DNA of 64,000 nt, taken from the NCBI GenBank assembly GCA_028753945.1, contig JAPNXP010000002.1:7192001-7256000 (forward strand), given 5' to 3'. The position numbers were made by a program, and so were the translations under genes. Source of the stretch: Hexactinellida sp. DTS-2022 (taxonomy: Eukaryota; Porifera; Hexactinellida). Shown here piece by piece: positions 710 to 63,820 of the stretch. The notes beneath the pieces are model-generated. The model did not search any database. It was not told where the DNA came from and saw only the letters and a list, made by a program, of their open reading frames with translations. The stretch's first letter is position 1, and each line of letters starts with the position of its first letter.

Positions 710-746
710 CACAGTGGGCATTTCAGGGGGGGTAAGTGGAAATAGG
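710..746 (+). repeat. Left terminal inverted repeat of the RAG1-like element (RSS-like)
   Basis: The order is heptamer CACAGTG (710-716), a 19-nt spacer that includes a run of G, then GTGGAAATAGG (736-746). The same heptamer and the same 11-nt inner block occur at the right end with a 9-nt spacer. The shared spacer start is GGCATTT. Confidence 0.85.
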
Positions 747-938
747 AAAACTATGCTAGATACACTCAAAAATAGTATTATTGACATATAGGTTATCTAC
801 CCTTCTAAATAGTTTTTTTTTGATTAAAAAATTATCATCCCCCTCATTAATTAATTATGACGTCATTGGAATTCTTTCATTGGCTAATTCAATAAGCAAC
901 TCCATAAAAAGAATTATACAATGTAGTAACAAAATATC

Positions 939-3067
939 TCATCTAGATATGCAAGTTAGAAATGAGAAAAGCGATTCATGTTCAAAATGAGAAATGCTAT
1001 CTCCAATAACGTGCAGACATGTAGGATCTGATACAACACATTTTTTACACTTTGTCACTTTTCTAAAAGTGATCAAAATATGATCGCTGTTACACAATAG
1101 ACGTATAAATATGTCACGCGTGTTAGTAGAGAAAGAAAAAAAATTCGCTAGGTGCTCGCGATATTTTCTTATCAATTTGTTGCAAACCTCAACAGCCTCT
1201 TCTGAAAAATCTTTCATTCCATGACAATTGTTACATGATCGAATGAGCTCTGAACAATGAGCTAATAATTTGTGCAGAGAGGGTGTAATATTTGCCCATG
1301 GGAAATGAATTACGATGGATTCGTATGTTTCCTTGCACAAAACGTCAAGCCTTTCGGTGTTTATTTCTCTGTCACTGTTATAGAGACGTAATATCACTGA
1401 GAGGTTTGTGTGAATCATTTTCAGATTATGATGATGTTCTGAGGGTATTAAAGAGTTTACCCAGAAAAGAAATTCGTTCTTATCCAGAAAACAAAGACGA
1501 GCATTATTCCCAGTGGATGTTGTGCCACCATCACTACTGGGCTGTTCAATCTTCATGCCTCTCTTTTCCATCAATAAACTGGAAGTAAACTTCATGGATT
1601 TCTTTATTCCAATTGATGATGGTGACTATTTCCTTGATCCAGATTGCAAGTGGTAGACTAGTATCATAAACATCTAAAAACGCAGGTATAAGCATGTAAT
1701 GGCGATGCACAAATTATATCTATATCTGATACAGGTTCGTGTGTTAATCCAAAATGATCATTGGAAGCTAGAGATAGAAATTCTTCCTTGTTAACAGAAT
1801 CAAATATTTCATTAGCAGCAGAAATTGATCGATTTATAGGAAAACCTTCTCTGATTAGTTCAAGATCATGTAACTGTTTGAAGGTAGCTGTACAAAGCTG
1901 ACAAGGATCTCCGCCTGCTCCAGATAGTATTCCAGCCATTTTGCCATCAAACATGCTTCTAACCAGTTTGACTTTTACAATCCCTTGTGGTAAAGTTAAC
2001 CCATTCTCCTGTAATTCTGAGACTAGTGGGTTAATATAGATATCCATAAGATGACGAACGTTGTCTTCATTCTCTTTAGCAGCTAATAAGGCAACAGGCC
2101 TAATCTGAAATTGAGAATTAGGTGTTTGGTTACTCCAAATCTGGGTATCATCACAATCTCGAATAGAGAGGGGTTTGAAGGCGAATAGAATAAAGCTTTT
2201 GCAATTAAATTGTGGAGTCTCTTGGAGCTGGTTGTAGATCTGATGGGAACCAGATCCATCCAAACCATCTGATGCAGTAAATGTCAATGGAAATTGAATA
2301 TCCATCACAGGAGATAATGTTTGGAGTAATCTGGATATTTTTTGCCTCATGATTGAAATGTATGATATTCCAATTCCTATTGGCAACTCCGTCGTATTAC
2401 TTTTCAATATAAACTCCTTGTCAAGTGTGATCTGGGAACGAAACTGGGAGATATCTTTGTATTTCGAGAAAATAACACCCTCTGATTTGCACACTCGTTT
2501 GAGGTCAATGTATTTACGCTTGCCGATTTCCAGCTGTGCAAGAAGGAATGTAGACTTTTCAATAGGGATATTCCGAATAGTGTCCTTTTGAAATGTACCT
2601 GTGCTTACTATTTCTTGACAAAACGAACTGGTAGAATAATCACCTGCTGACGCCGAAACTAGTTGTAGAGCTAGAGCTGCTAGGGTTTTACAATTAATAT
2701 TTTCCTTCTCTGCTAGAGAACTCATGAAGGAAATAAGTGGTTCAAGAAGAACTCTTTGTCCCTTTATAGTCATTTCAAGAAGTGGTTTGCGAATCTCTCT
2801 AGCCTTTTCTGTCTCGAAGACTTCACCATCAGACGAGAGTCGTCTTTTCACTCCTGGCGTATTGCTGTCATGAAACAAGAATTCTTCCCAAGTACTGAGG
2901 TCATTTTCTTTCCGATACAACTGCCTACTAGCCTTCAATTCGATAAATTTATTTCGGATTGTATGATATTGGCCAGCTCCCAAATGATAGTCATCCATAA
3001 AGTAACTGGTAGCATCTCTAATAGACGTTTTGGATGTGAGAAATTCAAGAGCTTCTCTATTGTTCAT
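939..3067 (-). pseudogene. RAG1-like transposase core, decayed
   Basis: Two minus-strand blocks (1664-3067, 467 aa; 939-1595, 218 aa) together resemble the RAG1 core. Block one has SDGLDGSGSH with a candidate first catalytic Asp at residue 267, then PNS and RPVALLA segments, SMFDGKM with candidate Asp 374, and a CQLC zinc pair (389-392). The 107-residue spacing of the two Asp matches the 108 between mouse RAG1 D600 and D708. Block two has HKLLAH followed by SEEAVEVCNK, whose Glu 136 matches the place of RAG1 E962. The blocks are separated by one apparent 1-base shift near 1675 and one premature TAG near 1630. A possible upstream exon lies at 3193-3303. In the family this protein cuts and joins DNA next to CACAGTG-like ends; here it looks inactive. 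Confidence 0.85.
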
Positions 3068-3192
3068 AATGCTATAAATCTAATGATAATAAAGTGTTAG
3101 AGCTCTTTGTAAAATAAAATGTTCAGTGCGCCTCCGTGCGGGGTAAATACTTTTGTAATTTGAATATTAGTATATAAGCAACATTTTAAAAC

Positions 3193-3303
3193 TATACAGA
3201 TTTCACAGCAGGGCACAGCACTATAAGTCCCATCGCTTTTTACATGGCGACCTAAATGATATTTTTTGTCCGAAGCTGAAGTATAAGAAAAAGTCGGGAC
3301 CAA
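3193..3303 (-). CDS. Possible 5' exon of the RAG1-like gene
   Basis: A minus-strand open segment starting at ATG 3303 encodes about 37 residues, including a His/Cys-rich stretch ending CCEIC. A GT-type donor-like sequence follows, and the main RAG1-like block begins downstream at 3067 after a short AT-rich gap with AG acceptor-like sites. Position and strand suit a first exon, but no homology is recognised, so this is tentative. Confidence 0.3.
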
Positions 3304-3601
3304 TAAACAAAATATGTTGAAAGAGTTTCAATCATTTAAATTGATGTAGTTATATATATAGTTATAAAATATTGTTGAAATCAATCAATCAAATTACTAA
3401 TAGTGTACATATTATATTGCAATGAACATACTCATTTTGATAAACCGCAAAATTAAATTCCTACTTTTCAAATGCCTTTGGCAATCATCACCATAACAAC
3501 AGATTTGATAGTTAGATTTGAATGAAAATTTGCATGACTATGTTTGAAAGTATGCTGAATTGAATGGAGGAAATTATAAAGTGATTTGGGATTACAAAAA
3601 A

Positions 3602-3628
3602 ACAGCCTATTTCCACCTAAATGCCCAC
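3602..3628 (-). repeat. Right terminal inverted repeat of the RAG1-like element, split by hAT
   Basis: Read on the minus strand with the last bases 6911-6914, this gives CACAGTG, a 9-nt spacer GGCATTTAG, then GTGGAAATAGG. The hAT-like element was inserted between position 3628 and the terminal TGTG and duplicated ATGCCCAC (3621-3628 and 6903-6910). Confidence 0.85.
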
Positions 3629-3991
3629 TAGGGTGTCCCCTCAATTTCATTTTTTCGAATTTACTCTTGAGACAGGCTCCAAAAGTTGCCTCTACTGATT
3701 TAATTAGAGTTTTGATTCCTAAAAATTCTAGATATACCACGCTACAGGTTCCTATTTTTCTTCGAAGTTTACTGAAAAATGCGTAAAATCAATTTTTTTT
3801 ATTTGTTTGCGAATTATTCATATTATAATTTAATTAATTCCTTCAATTATGCAACCAATTTATCAATCAATCTATTTGAAATGATTATATTTCAAAAATT
3901 AGATCATTCGAACCAATATTTACAGAACTACCCTTAGTTTTCCAAGTTGTCGGACAAAATCCCGATTTTTCCTAAAATGACTATTTACCAA
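3629..3991 (+). repeat. Left long inverted repeat of the hAT-like element
   Basis: About 362 bp, complementary to 6541-6902. The inner limit is CCTAAAATGACTATTTAC, mirrored at 6541. Confidence 0.9.
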
Positions 3992-4062
3992 GTATTATCC
4001 TTTCTATAGCTCTTTTGTTTTAATGATAGTCCATATTTGTCATAATAATTAGTCAAGTTTAC

Positions 4063-6288
4063 TTAATTAACTACAAAATCCTTTTTTGACTGAAAAGTTT
4101 TGTAATCACACCTACTCTTCACTTTATTTAAAATATAGCCATGTCGTGCTTCATATCCGTACACTGAATTACTTGATTCTGTTACTAATTTTACTCCTCT
4201 TTCAACTGCTTGTGTGTGACAAGGTATTAATTGAATGCTTCTTTGTGTGTCAACATTGGATCTGAGTTGATCGTCTGTATATTCACTTAGTAAAGGTGGT
4301 GGCGTCACGCTTTCACACTCTGCCATCGTGAAATAGTTTGATGCATTCCAATCTATCTTAGAATCTATCTTAAATTTTCTCAACTTTGATTCTTGTTCAT
4401 TTCTAGCATATTCTCTGGCGAGAATGACTTTGGAAATAGCATCTTGTCTATTGGAAATGTCATTATCATGTATTTGACATAACAGAATGTTTTCTGGATG
4501 TGCCCAAAATGAGTTACGTTGAAGGACTGGTCTAACTACTTCCTGAATTTGCGGTGGTTGTTCCTTTAGTAACTGTAATATGAAGAAGAAATTCTTGGCA
4601 CCATCGATACAACTAGAGTGTTCCTTGATGTGAAACCAGATGGGGGCATAGAATGTCAGAATAAAGGATGATATCATGATCAATTCTTTAGATGGATTTG
4701 GGGAAGAGATATAGAATCTTAATATCCTGTTTGCTTTGGTAAGCCATCTAGCTTGATTCAGGACACCTGGAGAATTACTTGTCACATTGTGATATAGTAG
4801 ATACTCTCGGCCATGTTGAACTGTCATACATATATGGTATAGAAAAGATTGATCAGTACTAAGCTCTGAGATAATTATCTCTGGTAGTTTGTTAACACAC
4901 CCATTTAAAGTTTGAAAGTTGGCAATGGGCAACAGTCGGAGGTCCTCGTTGATGGCTTTGCCAATTGGACCTTTGAAGGATGTAGGACCAGCAGTCATTC
5001 CATCCAAAACCTCAAATACATGTTTCAATGGGAGTTCATTCAAATGAAGCATGCACACCAGCCATTGTAACGGGCGATCTAGAGCCACTTCGATATTTCT
5101 GATAATTCCAGAATGTTTGCCCGTGTTGGTTGGACAACCATCACATCCCAGAGCTTGGAGGCTATTGGAAGATTCATTATCATGAATGAATGAAAGCAAC
5201 TCTTTAGCTATATCATTAGCTTTTCCAGAAATAGGAATTAAATGATCGACATACCTAGATCCAGGTTCTTCAATAATAGTATAATGTTCTTCTATCTCAG
5301 TGCCTTTTATTTCCTTGGGTTGAAAATCATCTGGATTTATATTCTCGCTGCAAACTCTGGTTTTATCACGCCTACCATCAAACATTAAGCAAGAAAAACT
5401 ATGGTGAGTCTTGGAAGAAAGTTCTTTGGCAATATTTCTTGCTCGTTGCCTCTCACGGTATACCTTGGAGTGAATTAAGGAATTGTCTGTAGTCAAAAGG
5501 TTGAGATCTTTCAATGCAGCATTAACAAGAGCTGCAACTTCGCGATTAGAAGAATTAAACCTATCTGCCATTTCAGCAAGTGTGGGATATTTATTATTAT
5601 TTCTGTTTAACGTTCTGGTGAAATTTCCTGCTTCAGGTATTGATAGGTCTTCCAATGTTTCATAGTCTTCATTTTCGGGTATTTCTAAATCTGTATTCGC
5701 CAATTCTAGATCATCAATTTTCGGTTTTTTCAGCGTTAATTTCTTACGATCATCAAATAATTGAGCTCTTTCATTGCGCTTTTGTAGAACTATAGACATA
5801 TGCTGGTCAACACCAGAAATTACCATATTACGTTCGGTTTTTTGATCCACATAAAATTCCCATTCATAGATAGGTATTTTTATTGGGCATCGGCAATCTT
5901 CACGGTCAATATTTACATCATAACATTTACATGGTGTCACATCGAAGAGTGAATCGAAAGTCGCAATGTCGGTGTTAAATGTGTCGTTTACCCGTTTATT
6001 TGTAGGTAGTTTACTTGCTTTTTGATATCTTTCAACAAGTCGCTGAATCTTCTTAGTGACGATGGAAACTGACATTGTTGGGAGTCCTGCAAATTCCCAT
6101 ATGGAAATTACCTCATCAGCAACTCGATTAGCAATAAAGCAAGTAGTTGAATTTCCATGCATAATGCGTCTTTGGTAATGGTAACAATTGACTACATTAC
6201 GATTTGTCGCCAATTGTCGTAGTGGGAGAGGTGCTGGGAAACCTAGAATTGACTCAAATTGGCTCCGCGTTTTAGGAATAGACACCAT
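4063..6288 (-). CDS. hAT-like transposase, 741 aa
   Basis: This is an uninterrupted minus-strand gene from ATG 6288 to stop 4063, wholly inside the hAT-like element. A Cys cluster (C120, C122, C132, C134) could bind zinc. The RNase-H-type catalytic core is suggested by FDGRRDKT (D304), LGCDGCPTNTG (D383), a conserved LQWLVCMLHLNELPLKH stretch (about 408-423) and QAVERGVKLVTE with E696 near the C terminus, the place of the hAT Glu. Similar unnamed proteins are common in arthropod and cnidarian genomes. The 8-bp target duplication and TAGGG termini support hAT. It would cut and reinsert the element. The family is close to that of the remnant at 38098-39282. Which hAT lineage it belongs to is not clear. 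Confidence 0.75.
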   Translation of the reverse strand: MVSIPKTRSQFESILGFPAPLPLRQLATNRNVVNCYHYQRRIMHGNSTTCFIANRVADEVISIWEFAGLPTMSVSIVTKKIQRLVERYQKASKLPTNKRVNDTFNTDIATFDSLFDVTPCKCYDVNIDREDCRCPIKIPIYEWEFYVDQKTERNMVISGVDQHMSIVLQKRNERAQLFDDRKKLTLKKPKIDDLELANTDLEIPENEDYETLEDLSIPEAGNFTRTLNRNNNKYPTLAEMADRFNSSNREVAALVNAALKDLNLLTTDNSLIHSKVYRERQRARNIAKELSSKTHHSFSCLMFDGRRDKTRVCSENINPDDFQPKEIKGTEIEEHYTIIEEPGSRYVDHLIPISGKANDIAKELLSFIHDNESSNSLQALGCDGCPTNTGKHSGIIRNIEVALDRPLQWLVCMLHLNELPLKHVFEVLDGMTAGPTSFKGPIGKAINEDLRLLPIANFQTLNGCVNKLPEIIISELSTDQSFLYHICMTVQHGREYLLYHNVTSNSPGVLNQARWLTKANRILRFYISSPNPSKELIMISSFILTFYAPIWFHIKEHSSCIDGAKNFFFILQLLKEQPPQIQEVVRPVLQRNSFWAHPENILLCQIHDNDISNRQDAISKVILAREYARNEQESKLRKFKIDSKIDWNASNYFTMAECESVTPPPLLSEYTDDQLRSNVDTQRSIQLIPCHTQAVERGVKLVTESSNSVYGYEARHGYILNKVKSRCDYKTFQSKKDFVVN

Positions 6289-6540
6289 AGCTAAATGAAT
6301 TGGATTAATAGAATTGTATTAAGACATATTTAGTCAGTATTATATATCAAAATATATTTTCAGACATTCCATTGTGTCAAAATTACTTAATAGTATCAAA
6401 TTTCAGAAAATATATTAGTAAACATAACTATTACTATAAAGTGTAGTCATCCCAACATTGTAGTGCCGCTTAAGATGCAAACTTCAAGGTATATCTATTT
6501 CAATAACTAAAAAAATAGGAAACGCGTCATTGAGCTGTTT

Positions 6541-6902
6541 ATAGTAAATAGTCATTTTAGGAAAAATCGGGATTTTGTCCGACAACTTGGAAAACTAAGG
6601 GTAGTTCTGTAAATATTGGTTCGAATGATCTAATTTTTGAAATATAATCATTTCAAATAGATTGATTGATAAATTGGTTGCATAATTGAAGGAATTAATT
6701 AAATTATAATATGAATAATTCGCAAACAAATAAAAAAAATTGATTTTACGCATTTTTCAGTAACTTCGAAGAAAAATAGGAACCTGTAGCGTGGTATATC
6801 TAGAATTTTTAGGAATCAAAACTCTAATTAAATCAGTAGAGGCAACTTTTGGAGCCTGTCTCAAGAGTAAATTCGAAAAAATGAAATTGAGGGGACACCC
6901 TA
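6541..6902 (-). repeat. Right long inverted repeat of the hAT-like element
   Basis: Mirror image of 3629-3991, ending GGACACCCTA directly before the duplicated ATGCCCAC at 6903-6910. Confidence 0.9.
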
Positions 6903-6919
6903 ATGCCCACTGTGTAAGG

Positions 6920-7908: not shown

Positions 7909-10753
7909 TTGAAGCTAGCAGTCGTTAGAGCGATGTCGAAAAGTTTCAAACTCTTTAGGCCTTGCGGACTACCTAGTTTCCCACAGTCAGATAATACAAA
8001 CTGGGAACTTTGTGTCGTATGTGAGAAGCAGACATCAGAGTCCCTTACTTCTCCTACTCTCTCAAGACGGAACGACATTGGAAGAGGGTACAAATCTCTT
8101 GCTGAAAATTTAGTCAAGTTTAATGAATTGGGTAAATTACCAAAAGTTTGCAGTTAAACAGAATAGATGAAGGACAAGGTATTGAAACAGCTCTAATTGA
8201 CAATGACGCCAAGTGGCATCATACTTGTTTCCTGAATTATAATAAAACAATGGTGCAAAGAGCAGAGAAGAGGAAGGAAGAAACCCTTATAGATATCACG
8301 AGTGATGAACTTCCCCCCAAACGTAATAGATTGCGGTCTTTCAGTACAGGCGCATTTCCTAGTGAGGAATCTTGTTTCTTCTGTGGAAAATCAGCTGGTA
8401 CAGACATTCTTCACCAGGCATCAACATATCAGATTGACCACCGTGTACGGGAGAGTGCTGAACTTGTTGAGGACAATTTGCTCTTAGCCAGACTTAACAT
8501 AGGAGACATGGTAGCCTTGGATGCCAAATACCATACCAAGTGCTTATTGGCTCTTTACAATCGTGCAAGGCAGGTTAGGACAAATGAACACCAACTTACA
8601 GATACTGAACATCAAATATCTGGGATTGCATTTGCAGAACTTGTCATGTACATAGAGGAAACTCGTTTTGAAGCAAGTACTGCACAAGTTTTCAAACATG
8701 CTGATCTTGCACAACTCTACATGTCTAGGATGGAACAGTTTGGAGTAGTGGGTAACAGGGTGAATACAACTCGACTGAAACAAAGACTGTTGGCACAAAT
8801 TCCTGATTTGCGAGCTCACATTAAAGGGAGAGATGTATTGCTGGGTTTTGAGGAAGATATTGGTGCTGCAATAGGAAGAGTATGTGCCCATGACATTGAC
8901 AGTGATGCTGTGCACCTTGCGCGTGCTGCACAAATTGTACGTCGACACATGTTTGAAGTTACAAAACACTTCAATGGAACATTTGAAGAAGAATGTCAGG
9001 AAAATCTGTGCCAAACTTGTTACTTGCACTAGTGAATATGTTGCTGGATGGCCCTAGTATCAAAAACCAAATTCACGAGTGTTCAACACCCGCAGCACTT
9101 TCAATTGCTCAGATTATAAAATATAACTGTGTCAAGCACATGCGCACACAGACCAACAAAAGCTCATTCGTGAGACATAGCTCTTCACAAGAAACACCAG
9201 TTCCTATCTACATTGGACTAATGCTGCATGCACAAACTCGGAAGAAGGAAGTGGTGGACAGGATGTTCAGTCTAGGAATCAGTATCTCTTATGACCGTGT
9301 GCTACGCCTTTCAGCGGAGATAGGAAACACTGTTTGTCAACACTTTCACATGGAACAAGTTGTTTGTCCACCTACTATGCGGAGTGGGGTATTCACAACG
9401 GCTGCTGTGGATAATATCGACCACAACCCCAGTGCTACCACAGCCAAGAATTCATTCTATGGAACTGGAATCTCGTTGCAGCAGCATCCCACTTCTGTTG
9501 ATGCAGGATTGCGTCGTGAAATTATTACTATTGGAAGTAATGATGGCTCAAAGAAAGTTGGTCCTCTACCATATATCTATACTAATGTACCACCGGTTGC
9601 ATCAAGTGTTAAACACTCACCTGTTCCTACTACCAGTCTTACCTACTTGAAACGGAATGACTTCAAGAAGTACGCTGAGGGAGACTACAGATGGTTGGTA
9701 AACGCTCGATATCTTATTGAACAAAGTTCTGATAAAACCAGCGAAGACATATCATCGGCCGCATACCATACAAGGTACCAGGATCCAGGAGACCGAATCA
9801 TAACACGTACTGCCTTACTTCCACTATTCCAGGAAAGTGCTCATACGGTAGCAATGATTAAACATTCAATGGATGTTGTCAAGAGTGCTGTTGAACATTT
9901 AAATCCTGGACAAACTCCAGTTCTGACTTTTGACCAGCCACTCTATGCTTTAGCTAAACAGATTCAGTGGAAGTGGCCCAATAAGTATGGAGAAAATCTA
10001 TTTGTAGTAATACTTGGTGGACTGCACATCGAAATGGCAGCTCTGAAGACCATTGGTGACTGGCTTCAAGGAAGTGGATGGACGCATGCACTAGTGCAAG
10101 CTAATATTACAACAGTTGGAAAAGCTGATTCTCTATGCCGAGCAACGCACGTTTGCGTACAAGAAAGGCACATCAAATTACTGTTGTTGCTTTGTACATT
10201 CTGCAACATCGTGCATATGACCAATACAGTCTTAATTAATAGTGCACAAAAAGGTCACACTCCTTTGAATTTTGAGGTTTGGTGTAATATGAGAAAACAA
10301 TGTTGCCCTCAGTTTCATTACTGGAAGACAGTTTTGCAGCTAGAAGTTTGCATTCTCACTTATGTTCGTTCACTAAGGGAGGAACATTTTCTTGTGTATC
10401 TTGATGCCCTCACAGAACTCTCACCGTGGTTTTATGCATCAGACCACACTAACTATGCCCGCTGGATTCCAGTACATCTGAAAGATATGACTGAATTACC
10501 CAAGAATCACCCAGATGTTTTTAGGGAATTCAATTCTGGTCACTTTACAGTGCAAAAGACCAAGCGAGTGTTCTCAGCCATCCCCATTGATCAAGCGCAT
10601 GAGCAGAACAACGCTTGTGTCAAGGGTGATGGAGGTGCAGTTGGTCTCTTAGATGACCCTGGTGCCCTGCGGAGATGGATGGTTGCTGGGCCAGAGATTG
10701 CAAGATTGATAGAGGAATTTGAAATACAAACCTGCACTGGAGCAAAGGAGTAG
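7909..10753 (+). pseudogene. First gene of the 6.6-kb element: zinc-cluster protein with transposase-like core, decayed
   Basis: Three consecutive blocks (7909-8157, 8148-9032, 8993-10753) cover one long protein in two frame changes. The N-terminal part has paired Cys and His motifs: CVVC, WHHTCF, CFFCG and YHTKC, suggesting zinc binding. The longest block (586 aa) contains FDQPLYALAKQIQW, GGLHIEMAALKTIGDWL, then IPIDQAHEQNN and GDGGAVGLLDDP near its end. The spacing of acidic residues in these conserved blocks suggests a DDE-type nuclease core, but this is inference. The block stops at 10753, just at the insertion point of the nested 915-bp element. I recognise the family as a widespread unnamed invertebrate protein; its biochemical role is not known to me. 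Confidence 0.7.
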
Positions 10754-26492: not shown

Positions 26493-27620
26493 CTATTCTG
26501 GCAATTTCCTGTTATTCTTGATTCCTACACAGCTGGAGTGGAACCAGTCCTCGCACATATGGCAACCGACCCAGCGATCAAACTCTCGCGTTGTACGAAT
26601 AGGGCAATCCCTCATGTTACATTCGCAGCAGACACTTTCACTCTCGTCGCCACTAGACTGTACCTCGGAGCCGAACTTCCCTGATGAATAGAAGGCCTTC
26701 TTGAGACGTTTTCCGGTGGAGGAGACCGGCTTATCGCGACGCCTTCTTGAGGTTTCAGCCAATTTTGTCTGTGTTACTATTTGCCTTCTACGGCGCTTAT
26801 GTGTTTCTCTTATACGACGCACTCTAGCTTGGTTTCTTCGGCGATCGCGACGATACAAGTAATGAAGTGTTTCATAACTAGGCGTGAGTCTGAGTTCCTT
26901 CATGAGGACAGAATAGGACAACGACCCTTCATTGAAGGCCAGGACCGCCGTTACCGTACTGGCTACAAGGGATTTGTGTCCCACTCTCTTGACCTTGGGT
27001 GCGTTGTGCCACAACATATTGTGTAAACTTTCATTGCTATTCTGTGTCTTCCCTAGGGTGATAGTTTTACAAAAGGAAAGACAGGCGAAGATCAGAAATA
27101 TCTCCGCGATACGACTGGACTCCGCCGGGGTTAGAAATGGTTCTCTGGTAACTGGGAATGGTAAGGAACTGTCCTCCAGATGCTTTGCGACTAATTTTCT
27201 GAAGTAGCACCATGAAGTTGAACCCTCCGGGCAATTATCGTGCTTTTCATTCGTGTGTAGGAGAAGGACCTGCAGGGCTTCATGGATTTCCAGAGGACTT
27301 TCATCCCGGTGCTGGACTATTACCAGAGCGTAGAGGTGAGCTATTCTTTCAGCTTTCCCTTCTGGTAAGCCTTTGAAGGTTTTAGACTTTTACGCAAGTT
27401 CATTTTCCGCGCTTCTGATCGTGTCCTAAACACTCTTCTTTCCTAACCGTTGTTAGGCCATTATAGGGATCTGATCTTACCAAATTCGTATAGGAAGAAG
27501 AATCTCCATCACCGATATAAGTCTCGTACACCAAACCATGACTGGATACTGACCTCTTCCAAATTTCGACAGCGGCCGAGCTCTCCATGGATTGAGAGGA
27601 ACCAGAGTAATTCGCGGTAC
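26493..27620 (-). pseudogene. Mutator-like transposase with C-terminal PHD finger, decayed
   Basis: Reading down the minus strand, 27588-27400 has MESSAAVEIWKRSV, then YIGDGDSSSY and VRKEECLGH, which fit the Mutator-like transposase domain (Pfam family I know as PF20700), where GDGD contributes a catalytic Asp. A middle part has LVIVQHRDESPLEI, HDNCPEGSTSWCY and LGKTQNSNESLHNMLWHNAP. The open block 26493-27017 continues with a basic KRRRRQ region and a Cys/His cluster CCECNMRDC...CHMCEDWFHSSC, a PHD-type finger cut short at the end. At least two frame changes are present. Base composition is clearly richer in GC than the surroundings. A second, better preserved C-terminal copy lies at 62935-63820. 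Confidence 0.75.
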
Positions 27621-30722: not shown

Positions 30723-31229
30723 TTACACTGTTAGGACTTCATCTGTTGTATTAGTTCCATACGTTGGGATAGGAGATTTCAGCATTGATACAACAGGTTC
30801 ATAATGTAGGACGAAATTTTTGATGTAAAGATTGACAGTTGGGCTGTTAGTAGATCTGAGCAAGCTCCAACGCACATGACGAATTACAGACTCTGGCATT
30901 CTATAATCGTTGTTAGCAACGTAGATATCGGCATTCAGAATAGCAGAAGCAGCCATAATTTCAACATCACTTCCCCAAATGGTTTCACGATAGATAGCGT
31001 TTTCGTGTGCGAGGTAATGACATGGTGTTGTTTGCTTTGATTTAAAATACCATCCAAGTTTTGTTGTCCCTTCACTGACTATAAATCGGCATATAATGGA
31101 ACGAAGCTGTAGGTGGCTGTTTTCACTCCCAGTAATTATTTTGGAGAGACATCTGAAGAGACAATTGCCATCTCCTTTGATTTCTCTGTCAGCTCTGGTT
31201 CGTATTTGCTTAGTAGCTGTCCAACGAGA
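30723..31229 (-). CDS. OTU-family cysteine protease domain of the Ginger1-like element
   Basis: One minus-strand frame from about 31229 to the stop at 30723 is open for some 168 codons, though its recognisable start is not an ATG. It shows GDGNCLFRCLS with the candidate catalytic Cys, then ITGSENSHLQLR, an IYRETIWGSDVEIMAAS block, ILNADIYVANN, and finally FVLHYEPVVSM with the candidate catalytic His. This is the full order of OTU-domain motifs. In Ginger1 elements such a domain follows the integrase-like transposase; its role in transposition is not established. It must be joined to upstream coding in a way I cannot resolve. Confidence 0.75.
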   Translation of the reverse strand, partial: SRWTATKQIRTRADREIKGDGNCLFRCLSKIITGSENSHLQLRSIICRFIVSEGTTKLGWYFKSKQTTPCHYLAHENAIYRETIWGSDVEIMAASAILNADIYVANNDYRMPESVIRHVRWSLLRSTNSPTVNLYIKNFVLHYEPVVSMLKSPIPTYGTNTTDEVLTV

Positions 31230-32073
31230 TCCGATGGTTGCTTGCTAACTGAATCAAATGTTATCCCCAAGAGAACACATTTACTACTCTGCCAATTCTC
31301 ATCTATAACAATAATTTTTGGGTCATCTGGATAGGCATCTGTAATAACGGTTTGATCTTTTTCGTCGAACGTGTCCCATAGCATCGTATTGAGATACTCC
31401 ATCGCCTAATAAAGGTATATAGGAATCATTAAGTATAATAAAATTACACAATGAATTAGAGCATCCATATAAGGTATCTCAATAATATTGTGTAGAATAC
31501 TTACCACGAAATACAGTATTTTGTGTGTATGTCTAGCACGCTCATTATCTGTAAAACTAGGATAAATATCTGGTGTCCATTCCATTACAGTCTCAATTAT
31601 GTCTCTCTTCTACAGATATATAAATACAATGGATATAAGTTGTATTTACTAATCTAAAATTTTCTAATTTATACTCGGTTAGACTTACAATTTTATCTTC
31701 TTTTTCACCATTCAAAAACTGAAATAAATAGGTGTTGGGAGTATAGATGTGTTGTTTGTTTAAGCTTCTGTACAATTTCTCATGTAAAGGAGTCGCGAAG
31801 GTTCCTTGGAGAATATTCTGTTTTAGAATTTCCTAGAAATTCAAAAAAATGATGAAGTAATCATTATTGCCTGAAGTTTGTGAGATAACTGAAATTGACT
31901 CAATTGGAGAAGTAAATTGATAGAATAACAATCACTTCTCAACAATAATTCAGGAATGTAAAGAGAATGGAATCCTTACTTTGAAAGTAGTTAGATGTGT
32001 AAATATAGATACTGCTGTAAATCCATAGAGATTCAGGCAAGTCTAAAATTGAATGTTTTCAATGAAATTGACA

Positions 32074-38029: not shown

Positions 38030-39282
38030 ATCAGAAAGTGCACTATTTCCAGAGCAACACCATCCAGAGGACAAGCGGCATCTTGATCGATGAATGATCA
38101 CTGTTCCTTAAATCGTTTAAAAAGAGCGATCTCTGGACCTGAGGATACGAAAAAGAAATCAAACACTACAGCCGCTAGTAACTCCAGGATGTGATGGCGG
38201 CAGGCAAAGTACAGAAGCCTTCGGTTGAAAGCTGCTTGGACGACCGTTATTGCCCCACAATGAATACCAGTATTGCTGGCAGTAGTATCAAAGCAGAGAC
38301 TGGCAAGATGTGGAGCGACTCCCGTCCACTCATGCAACAACTGAACTATTTTCCTTCCGATCTGTTCTCCAGAAGTATTAGGCAGGCGGGGGATACCAAA
38401 TAACTTCTCCACACATTTACCCAATACAACTACTGGCATGCGATCGCCCTTTACACCGTCGCAATCCGGAAGCATTTTCCCGTCAAAGTGAACAATGAGT
38501 GAGACTTTCGGGCTAAAGTTCTCCCTCACACTGCTTCCAATAGCCTCTCGTGTGTCCTTGAGAGCTTCATACAGCGATGTTATCGATAACGTGATTGACT
38601 GCAGGTCAACACCCGCCGCAACCAAAGCAGGGGCAACTATGTGCATTGCCTGGCGAGGAGTTGTGTTTGTCCGATCAAGGCTGGCATTAAATAATGCATT
38701 ATCAATAATGAAGCGTTTGTCAAGAATGGGACAAGACAATTCCAATGTATTAAGAGGCGGGTCTGGCGGGATCACAGCGGGTTCTAGCATAATGCGTTTT
38801 CGATGGTTTGAACTGAGCGCGAACACGTCATCCTCATCAGAAGAGTAGGTAGAGGCATCGTCAATATCGGGCTCGCAGCCATCATCGCTCGGTGCTTCAG
38901 TACCATTATCTGTAAGGGATACTTTTCGAGATTCCTCTAGCGGGCTCCTATTCAAATTGTCTTGAAGGCGCTTCATACGTTTTTCATTCTTGACTTTGAA
39001 TTCTCTATCCTCACTTCCCATTGACATTTTCCCTCCTGAACGCTGATCTTCAAGAAAATCAAGATCTTATGGGATTCGAATGAGCTGTGAGCAATTAGAT
39101 CGGGCGATGTCAAATAACATCGCTAGAGGAGCAGTGAATGCACTTTCTAGGAGTTGCTGTCTCTCGTTGCGCCAAAGTTTGTTTCTGCTGAGTGAAACGT
39201 GTTTATTATAAAGTGCTTTTAGCCTTGATACTACATTGGGAAGTTGTGTGGTTGCTATGTTCGCGAGTATCCAAAACTCCAT
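38030..39282 (-). pseudogene. hAT-like transposase, FDTTASNTG group, decayed
   Basis: The main block 38098-39027 (309 aa) starts with an acidic, low-complexity region, then has LIVHFDGKMLPD with candidate Asp 182, SLCFDTTASNTGIHCG with candidate Asp 247, LLYFACRHHILELL and SSGPEIALFKRF. An upstream block (39067-39282) with LKALYNKHVSLSRNK and LAMLFDIARS is in the same frame, separated only by one stop at about 39069. Downstream the frame passes one stop (TGA at 38098, where relatives usually have Trp) and then continues for some 40 codons. The motif order matches that of the intact 741-aa protein at 4063-6288, so both are one superfamily. GC content is higher than the flanks. Confidence 0.7.
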
Positions 39283-62715: not shown

Positions 62716-62934
62716 TTTCCCTACATGAGCAAGACAAACACTATACGCTTGATTAGGAATTGTTACTTTAACGCTACCTACGACTACTATTTTCCCATTT
62801 TTCCAGAAAAAAAATCTTTTGTTCTAAAGTTAACTTTTTGTTTATAGACACCTCTGCCAATTCCTAAGAAACTGGCAAAATCAGATTTATCATATTTGAA
62901 TTTTTTGGCCACATTACTAGTCATAAACTCCAAC

Positions 62935-63820
62935 CAGTGGGCTGGTTATTGTACAGAACAGGGGAAAGAGTCCTGAAGAAATACAGAAAGCTCTCTACGT
63001 CGTTGCCGATCACCTTGTTGAGAACCATGATAACTGTCCTCATACCAGAGATTCGTGGTGCTATATGGGGAAGAATATTGCTGAAGTAAAGGATGACGAC
63101 ACAATTTCACCGGTGAATCTCCGGGCCCCATACCTCACGGCACCAGAACTGGCTCGCCTCTTGGATGTCTTTCAGAAGTTCGCGAGCATTGCTTTATGTT
63201 CCGCCGTAACCCTTGGCAAGACGCAGAACGCGAATGAATCTCTGCACTCCGTCCTATGGCATAACGCGCCGAAAATCAAGCGTGTCGGCCAGAAGTCCCT
63301 CCAAGCCTCTGCAGCGCTGGCGGTCACCACTTTCAACGAGGGCTCTATGTCTCTGGCTAGCGTGCTTACCAACTTAGGAGTAGCCTGTTCACATAAGACC
63401 TTGCTCTATTTCGCGAGAAAGGACAAAGAACGCAACCGGTGTCGTATCAAAGCTGTCTCTGAAACCCAGAAGAGGAGACGAAGGTTACTCCAGTCCCAGT
63501 TTCTGACCGCAGAATCTTCCAGACGCAGGCGGGAAAAGGCTGGGGGAAAGTATAAGTCCAAAGCCTTTGGTAGTGAAGCTTCATCGAGTACCCCTGCGAA
63601 GAAAGCCGTTGCAAAAGCGTCCACTGGTGACGGATCAGACACCGTTTGCGAAGAGTGCCAGTTGCGAAATTGTCCGATCGGAAGAAAGCGGAAGACCGAT
63701 GACTGGGTGTTTTGCGAATTCTGCGACCAGTGGTATCACGCTAGGTGCATGAAAGTGACCCTGAAGGAAGTAGGAGATGAACCATTCCAGTGTTTCGACT
63801 GTGAAGAGCAAGATCCTTAG
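62935..63820 (+). CDS. Mutator-like transposase C-terminal part with complete PHD finger
   Basis: The frame is open from about 62935 (LVIVQNRGKSPEEI, HDNCPHTRDSWCY) through ATG 63065 to the stop at 63820, so the ATG (251 aa) is probably internal. Key parts: LGKTQNANESLHSVLWHNAP (residues 51-69 of the ATG frame), FNEGSMSL (90-97), a basic linker KRRRR and SSRRRREK (136-157), then a PHD finger (195-247) with CEECQLRNC, VFCEFCDQWYHARC and CFDC. The catalytic N-terminal half is not found upstream, where hAT fragments lie. PHD fingers read histone tails; in a transposase this might guide insertion, which is inference. An AATAAA lies about 70 bases after the stop. GC content is clearly above the flanks. 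Confidence 0.75.

Follow-up and report, generated by a model that had tools for sequence, protein, structure and literature searches.

The window, that is, the whole stretch of 64,000 nucleotides analysed here, corresponds to C11:7192001-7256000 in a genome of 112.4 Mb in 18 contigs and has a GC content of 35%; feature coordinates below are window positions. It contains a RAG1-related element at 710-3628 and 6911-6914, the right end of which is split by a second, nested element at 3629-6902. The left end (710-746, plus strand) is the gene-3' end and is of the long type: the heptamer CACAGTG at 710-716 is separated by 19 nt from the second motif, GTGGAAATAGG, at 736-746. The right end, on the minus strand, is the gene-5' end and is of the short type. 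Its inner part (3606-3628) carries the second motif at 3606-3616, as the reverse complement of GTGGAAATAGG, 9 nt from the heptamer, and it was recovered as a short end in the genome-wide end scan. The remnant at 6903-6914 is made up of the nested element's right copy of ATGCCCAC (6903-6910) and the outermost right end, with the heptamer reading CACTGTG at 6908-6914. Reading of the sequence also placed the 5-bp target duplication TAAGG, reported in an initial annotation of this DNA, at 705-709 and 6915-6919. The inverted ends with a CACAGTG heptamer reported there were likewise recovered, since CACAGTGGGCATTT matched exactly at 710-723 (plus strand) and with one mismatch at 6901-6914 (minus strand). 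When up to two mismatches were allowed, the window held three matches to CACAGTGGGCATTT versus 0.41 expected, a number reached in none of 100 shuffles. The third match, at 3619-3632, is most of the true right end, severed from its last four bases by the nested transposon.

The transposase gene of this copy lies on the minus strand in two ORFs. The N-terminal and central part (1664-3079, 471 aa) contains DGLDGSG, MFDGK and CQLC and matched HzTransib at 1.9e-10, and the C-terminal part (939-1625, 228 aa) contains LHKLLAH and SEEAVEVCNK and matched HzTransib at 3e-9 and BbRAG1L at 8e-4. These ORFs hold the RAG1-core motifs described earlier (CQLC, HKLLAH and SEEAVEVCNK), the last of which presumably includes the catalytic Glu. 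The RAG1-like Asp-Asp spacing of 107 had to be corrected: it was counted from the first Asp of DGLDGSG, whereas in the alignment the DG of HzTransib and RAG1L falls on the second Asp, from which the spacing is 104. Neither ORF matched a Pfam family at E up to 1. The ORFs, 3079-1664 and 1625-939, do not share a frame, and a stop bounds each of them; the gene is therefore broken and the window copy is dead.

The nested transposon (3629-6902) is separate from the Transib element. Its inverted repeats of about 360 bp start with TAGGGTGTCCCC and are 99-100% complementary, its ends are TAGGG, and it is flanked by its own 8-bp duplication, ATGCCCAC, at 3621-3628 and 6903-6910, which we take to fit the hAT pattern nTnnnnAn. 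The ORF list assigns it a 751-aa ORF (4063-6318, minus strand), which had no Pfam match at E up to 1 and no PDB match, and its end has two further matches in the genome, both on C14, at 82-85%. The earlier reading of 710-6914 as one transposon thus fails on an element with its own 8-bp duplication inside the span. One could suppose instead a single two-gene composite with the 751-aa gene in RAG2L's place, because the outer ends and TAAGG enclose the whole span, but the long inverted repeats, the duplication and the end relatives elsewhere all belong to the inner element. Moreover, the other complete elements of the family measure 2.9-3.7 kb and hold transposase-like ORFs only, with five exceptions, short or repetitive, in L058 and L059, and two genes between CACAGTG ends were seen in none of 29 elements. 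We consider such a composite extremely improbable and treat the locus as one transposon inserted into another. Another short end of the family (G000:C11:11699262-11699288) has CCTAGTGGG in place of CACAGTGGG, as in the window's interrupted end, and a second element may have inserted there at the same place in a Transib end.

Other features were observed in passing. Two related ORFs of about 298 aa, at 26493-27389 (minus strand) and 62927-63820 (plus strand), carry a C-terminal PHD finger (Pfam PHD, 0.0018 and 3e-6) and probably come from a repeated element. ORFs at 8136-10753 (plus strand), 30723-31244 (minus strand) and 38098-39066 (minus strand) resemble pieces of mobile elements; the one at 30723-31244 has an OTU protease domain (Pfam, 3.7e-9), and the other two had no Pfam match. 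The ends of C18 and C11 (L064 and L065) share a satellite that repeats about every 210 bp, in place of a short telomere repeat. Xenoturbella bocki as the source of this DNA is not supported: its peptide CLVQGCPIG (PMC7181382), back-translated into a pattern, had no match, and its GC content is 43% versus 35% for the window.

The transposase family and its gene content

The genome contains at least 94 protein matches to the first window ORF, a lower bound obtained with 90 of 761 candidates scored, and at least 11 of these lie in stop-free open frames of 700 aa or more. A profile made from 13 long open frames matched HzTransib (PDB 6pqn) at 1.5e-45 over the whole RNase H-type core. It also matched BbRAG1L at 4.4e-19 and RAG1 with values from 1.8e-15, and the nonamer-binding domain of RAG1 (3gna) was matched at 0.0059. 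Pfam RAG1 matched all 13 long copies, with a best value of 1.9e-9. The family therefore falls inside RAG1/Transib, and what was annotated as a RAG1-like transposon is indeed a RAG1-family DDE transposon with RSS-like ends. It sorts, however, with Transib and not with the RAG1L-RAG2L elements, because it has one gene and its best solved relative is HzTransib.

A C-terminal zinc knuckle similar, but not identical, to that of RAG1L was present in 12 of the 23 proteins reaching that far and missing or altered in the other 11, and the window copy has none. In most proteins it has the form Cx2Cx3GHx5C, with 3 or 6 residues before the last Cys in two, and never the 4 of RAG1L, whose knuckle (CTT1) is given as Cx2Cx3GHx4C in the available text of PMC7204232. 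From the ZnC2 CxxC to the LH block, four of the family's own proteins, including the divergent L066, have 64, 64, 65 and 68 residues, compared with 59 in BbRAG1L and 29 in HzTransib. Judged by length and alignment rather than structure, the alpha11-alpha12 region of the zinc-binding domain appears to be kept in these four proteins.

We considered whether the family could be a true RAG1L transposon of the ProtoRAG type that has since lost its RAG2L gene. The 59-68-residue stretch common to its proteins and BbRAG1L, and not to HzTransib, speaks for such an origin, as does the frequent presence of the C-terminal knuckle. In single-sequence comparisons, L043 also aligned with BbRAG1L over about 390 residues (44.6 bits), whereas HzTransib and BbRAG1L aligned over only 74 residues (19.2 bits). 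But whenever a solved-structure search recovered both proteins, HzTransib scored better, reaching 81 bits with L043, and the mean identity of the family's proteins was 26.7% to HzTransib versus 21.8% to BbRAG1L. BbRAG1L searched against the genome gave 62 matches, the best with 64.5 bits and 26% identity, indicating no strong relative, and a RAG2L-like ORF was found in 0 of 29 elements. A ProtoRAG-type origin is thus improbable, and we retain the affiliation with Transib. A 22-row tree grouped the 19 family copies in one clade (97/96) apart from HzTransib and BbRAG1L; these two, which as references represent one Transib and one RAG1L, and L066 stood outside the clade on very long branches in an order that is unsure.

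L066 (C2:3225500-3233000) has an intact ORF of 698 aa at 2216-4312 on the plus strand, which scored 104 bits with HzTransib and 79.5 bits with BbRAG1L. The end scan found no ends at this locus, where the 698-aa ORF was the sole one in the 7.5 kb to reach 100 aa; L066 might be a domesticated Transib gene or belong to another subgroup. Outside this genome, no relatives of the family were found among viral contigs (67 pattern matches) or prokaryote genomes (28 pattern matches).

The 29 elements with both ends hold 47 ORFs of 130 aa or more, 42 of which are transposase pieces. Of the remaining five, two are in L058 (130 aa each, minus strand) and three are in L059, where they overlap and consist of a proline-rich repeat. 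Each element has a single gene, and none of the 29 carries RAG2L, so the earlier statement that there is no RAG2-like gene holds for the elements. A RAG2 profile had no match in the whole genome and was equally silent in 14 of 14 control genomes, so that this result is no evidence of absence.

Element ends, second motif and asymmetry

A first paired-end scan, in which a duplication was not required, gave exact 5-bp duplications in L011, L013, L015, L016, L019, L020, L021 and L023. In a wider scan, both ends had to start with CAC and resemble each other, and a duplication was required that could contain one mismatch at most. In all, both ends were defined for 29 elements from 52 loci (L009-L060), L010 having been added for its exact ends. 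The 23 loci outside the end counts are the window copy (L009) and others that had no candidate or had candidates judged by eye to be due to chance; the candidates set aside differed at 4-5 of 14 positions and did not have CACAGTG at both ends, and one of them (L026) had an exact duplication. CACAGTG starts 56 of the 58 ends, a count shaped in part by this exclusion of weak candidates by eye, and the exceptions are in L051 and L024, one end each. Target duplications were exact in 26 of the 29 elements, had one mismatch in L022 and L056, and were absent in L010 despite its perfect ends. Exact duplications that had not been a search condition were found in the eight loci of the first scan, in L059-L062 and in the window. 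Other copies were expected to share the end sequence, and they do: their ends are identical in start and are accompanied by 5-bp duplications.

We then compared the two ends of each element through the best 10-mer common to both, leaving aside shift 0, which is the heptamer-adjacent block; the gene of L024 was taken to lie on the minus strand, and the orientation of L059 and L060 was assumed. Relative to its position at the gene-5' end, the shared 10-mer was displaced inwards at the gene-3' end, by 9 bp in 19 elements and by 10 bp in 8 (n = 29). As exceptions, L013 had a shift of 14, L050 had no clear shift, and L030, L036 and L024 tied with other shifts. At the level of sequence clusters, a shift of 9 or 10 gave at least 8 matching positions of 10 in 16 of 18, and no other shift from 1 to 15 did so in any cluster. 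The second motifs of the two ends matched at 8.89 of 10 positions within a cluster versus 7.09 across clusters, and the observed total was reached in 0 of 5000 permutations. The second motif, about 10 bp long, is thus subfamily-specific and has changed at both ends together, while its offset stayed at 9-10 bp. At many gene-5' ends, a stretch of A/T some 20 nt away from the heptamer was also noticed by eye.

For the window's subfamily, the pattern CACAGTGGGCATTT-N(0-16)-GTGGAAATAGG had 72 matches in the genome, versus 0 for the reversed control. Fifty of these were 37 nt long, 15 were 27 nt, four were 36 nt, and lengths of 28, 33 and 35 nt occurred once each; a long-end pattern for a second subfamily gave nine matches, all of 36 nt. 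Among ends matching the exact pattern, all eight facing pairs combined one short and one long end. With up to three mismatches, there were 99 short and 167 long ends genome-wide, and pairs were counted among all 99 short and 105 long ends (100 of the 167 plus 5 from the exact pattern) lying at most 8 kb apart. This gave 32 facing pairs, 31 of them short plus long, one short plus short and none long plus long, at distances of 0.9-4.9 kb. The 31 short-plus-long pairs are not independent events, because they are mostly deletion derivatives, about 1.1 kb in length, of shared descent. Of the five among these 31 that were inspected for duplications, the window, L059, L061 and L062 had an exact one and L010 had none. 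The single short-plus-short pair (C14:4075870-4079199) is probably not a normal insertion, because it has no duplication and contains the same gene-5' end twice. Long-type ends of this subfamily outnumber short-type ends, 56 to 16 among exact matches and 167 to 99 with mismatches.

The asymmetry could be inherited without function, the unlike ends of one founder having simply been retained by its copies. The small number of founders, with most facing pairs being the 1.1-kb derivatives, would fit this. However, the motif varies between clusters and yet agrees across both ends (8.89 versus 7.09; 0 of 5000), with the offset kept at 9-10 bp, and drift would not change both ends together, although gene conversion between the ends might. 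Thus, we regard functionless inheritance as unlikely, though less so than the alternatives discussed above. The transposase may enforce the asymmetry of the ends.

Relation to known systems and possible mechanism

We conclude, with a probability of roughly 0.87, that the window element is a dead copy of a large, recently mobile family of Subgroup I-type Transib cut-and-paste DNA transposons, the transposase of which would pair unlike ends. The homology to HzTransib and RAG1, both ends, the duplications, the single gene, the bipartite asymmetric ends with a second motif common to both, and the near-identical copies at different sites can all be read from the sequences. The placement in Subgroup I is suggested by features, namely the single gene, the asymmetric TIRs and the alpha11-alpha12 length set beside the published description, and not by the tree. 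Nine pairs of copies are 98.0-99.4% identical and have different duplications; L015, L016 and L019 are examples of near-identical copies. Between subfamilies, dN was 0.24-0.44 in seven pairs and dS was saturated, as would be expected from selection on a working transposase. Within subfamilies (three pairs, with few changes), dN/dS was not low: dN was 0.006 and 0.007 versus dS of 0.011 and 0.011 in two pairs, and 0.002 versus 0 in the third. Neither these values nor the near-identical copies demonstrate present activity.

Subgroup I Transibs have been described as having asymmetric TIRs, alpha11-alpha12, CTT1 and an NBD (Tao et al. 2022, PMC9435367). The present family resembles them in its single transposase gene, asymmetric TIRs, alpha11-alpha12 equivalent, NBD-like stretch and, in about half of the copies, a knuckle similar to CTT1. 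It differs in that 11 of 23 proteins have an altered knuckle or none and in that CACAGTG starts 56 of 58 ends, a comparison made with the text description. HzTransib, of Subgroup II, shares the RNase H-type core but has 29 residues between ZnC2 and LH as opposed to 64-68 here, and its TIRs are called symmetric in the available text of PMC8289069. According to the available part of Kapitonov and Koonin 2015 (PMC4411706), the copy number of autonomous Transibs is usually one or a few, whereas the window's family is copy-rich, with at least 94 protein matches. The family thus belongs to a described kind, with the hallmarks of Subgroup I, and seems unusually RSS-like and copy-rich.

AanRAGL of Aureococcus (PMC9435367) is similar in its 13-bp and 10-bp blocks, its spacers of 4 and 13 bp (a difference of 9) and its 5-bp duplications; unlike the present family, it carries RAG2L, and its end starts with CACACCCAAACCT. 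In the available text of PMC8289069, ProtoRAG of amphioxus (BbRAG1L, PDB 6b40) shares the CAC ends, the 5-bp duplications and the unlike ends, and has a CTT*-type C-terminus to which the knuckle of about half of the present copies is similar; it differs in having both RAG1L and RAG2L, the heptamer CACTATG and spacers of 27 and 31. The vertebrate 12/23 signals have the same heptamer, CACAGTG, and likewise one short and one long signal, with a difference of 11 compared with 9-10 here. They differ in that no ACAAAAACC nonamer follows after 12 or 23 bp here; in the window's subfamily, a GTGGAAATAGG-like motif follows after 9 or 19 nt. An offset of 9-10 bp corresponds to roughly one turn of the helix, near the 11 bp between the 12 and 23 signals. 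According to the passages available from a 2021 review (PMC8355894), ends of the 12/23 type are found in few Transibs, and RAG1 has no 12/23 preference in the absence of RAG2; the review also ties recognition of signal asymmetry to RAG2. A co-varying second motif together with an exact heptamer across many subfamilies was not met in the literature passages covered.

By analogy with RAG1 and HzTransib, one transposase would pair the short-spacer end upstream of the gene with the long-spacer end downstream, nick and form hairpins at the border of CACAGTG, and integrate with a 5-bp stagger that yields the duplication. It would bind the second motif and prefer unlike ends. In RAG1, the NBD reads the nonamer. 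By this analogy, the likeliest reader of the second motif here would be the NBD-like N-terminal region, since the motif persists in subfamilies that lack the C-terminal knuckle. The knuckle itself was considered as the reader and is disfavoured on the same grounds. We tentatively propose, at slightly less than even odds, that a RAG2-free Transib transposase enforces a 12/23-like rule, in which an exact RSS heptamer is combined with a second site one helical turn further in at one end, and that this second site has co-evolved with the transposase through many subfamilies. If this is true, end asymmetry is older than, and independent of, RAG2.

The family is related to the enzyme that shuffles antibody genes, and the origin of the one-short/one-long rule of V(D)J recombination is an old question. 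Here, RAG2-free elements combine the RSS heptamer with an asymmetry of 9-10 bp that is kept in 16 of 18 clusters, and the family includes near-identical copies that are intact. Such RAG2-free asymmetry makes the question of the V(D)J signal rule testable with one protein and two DNA ends.
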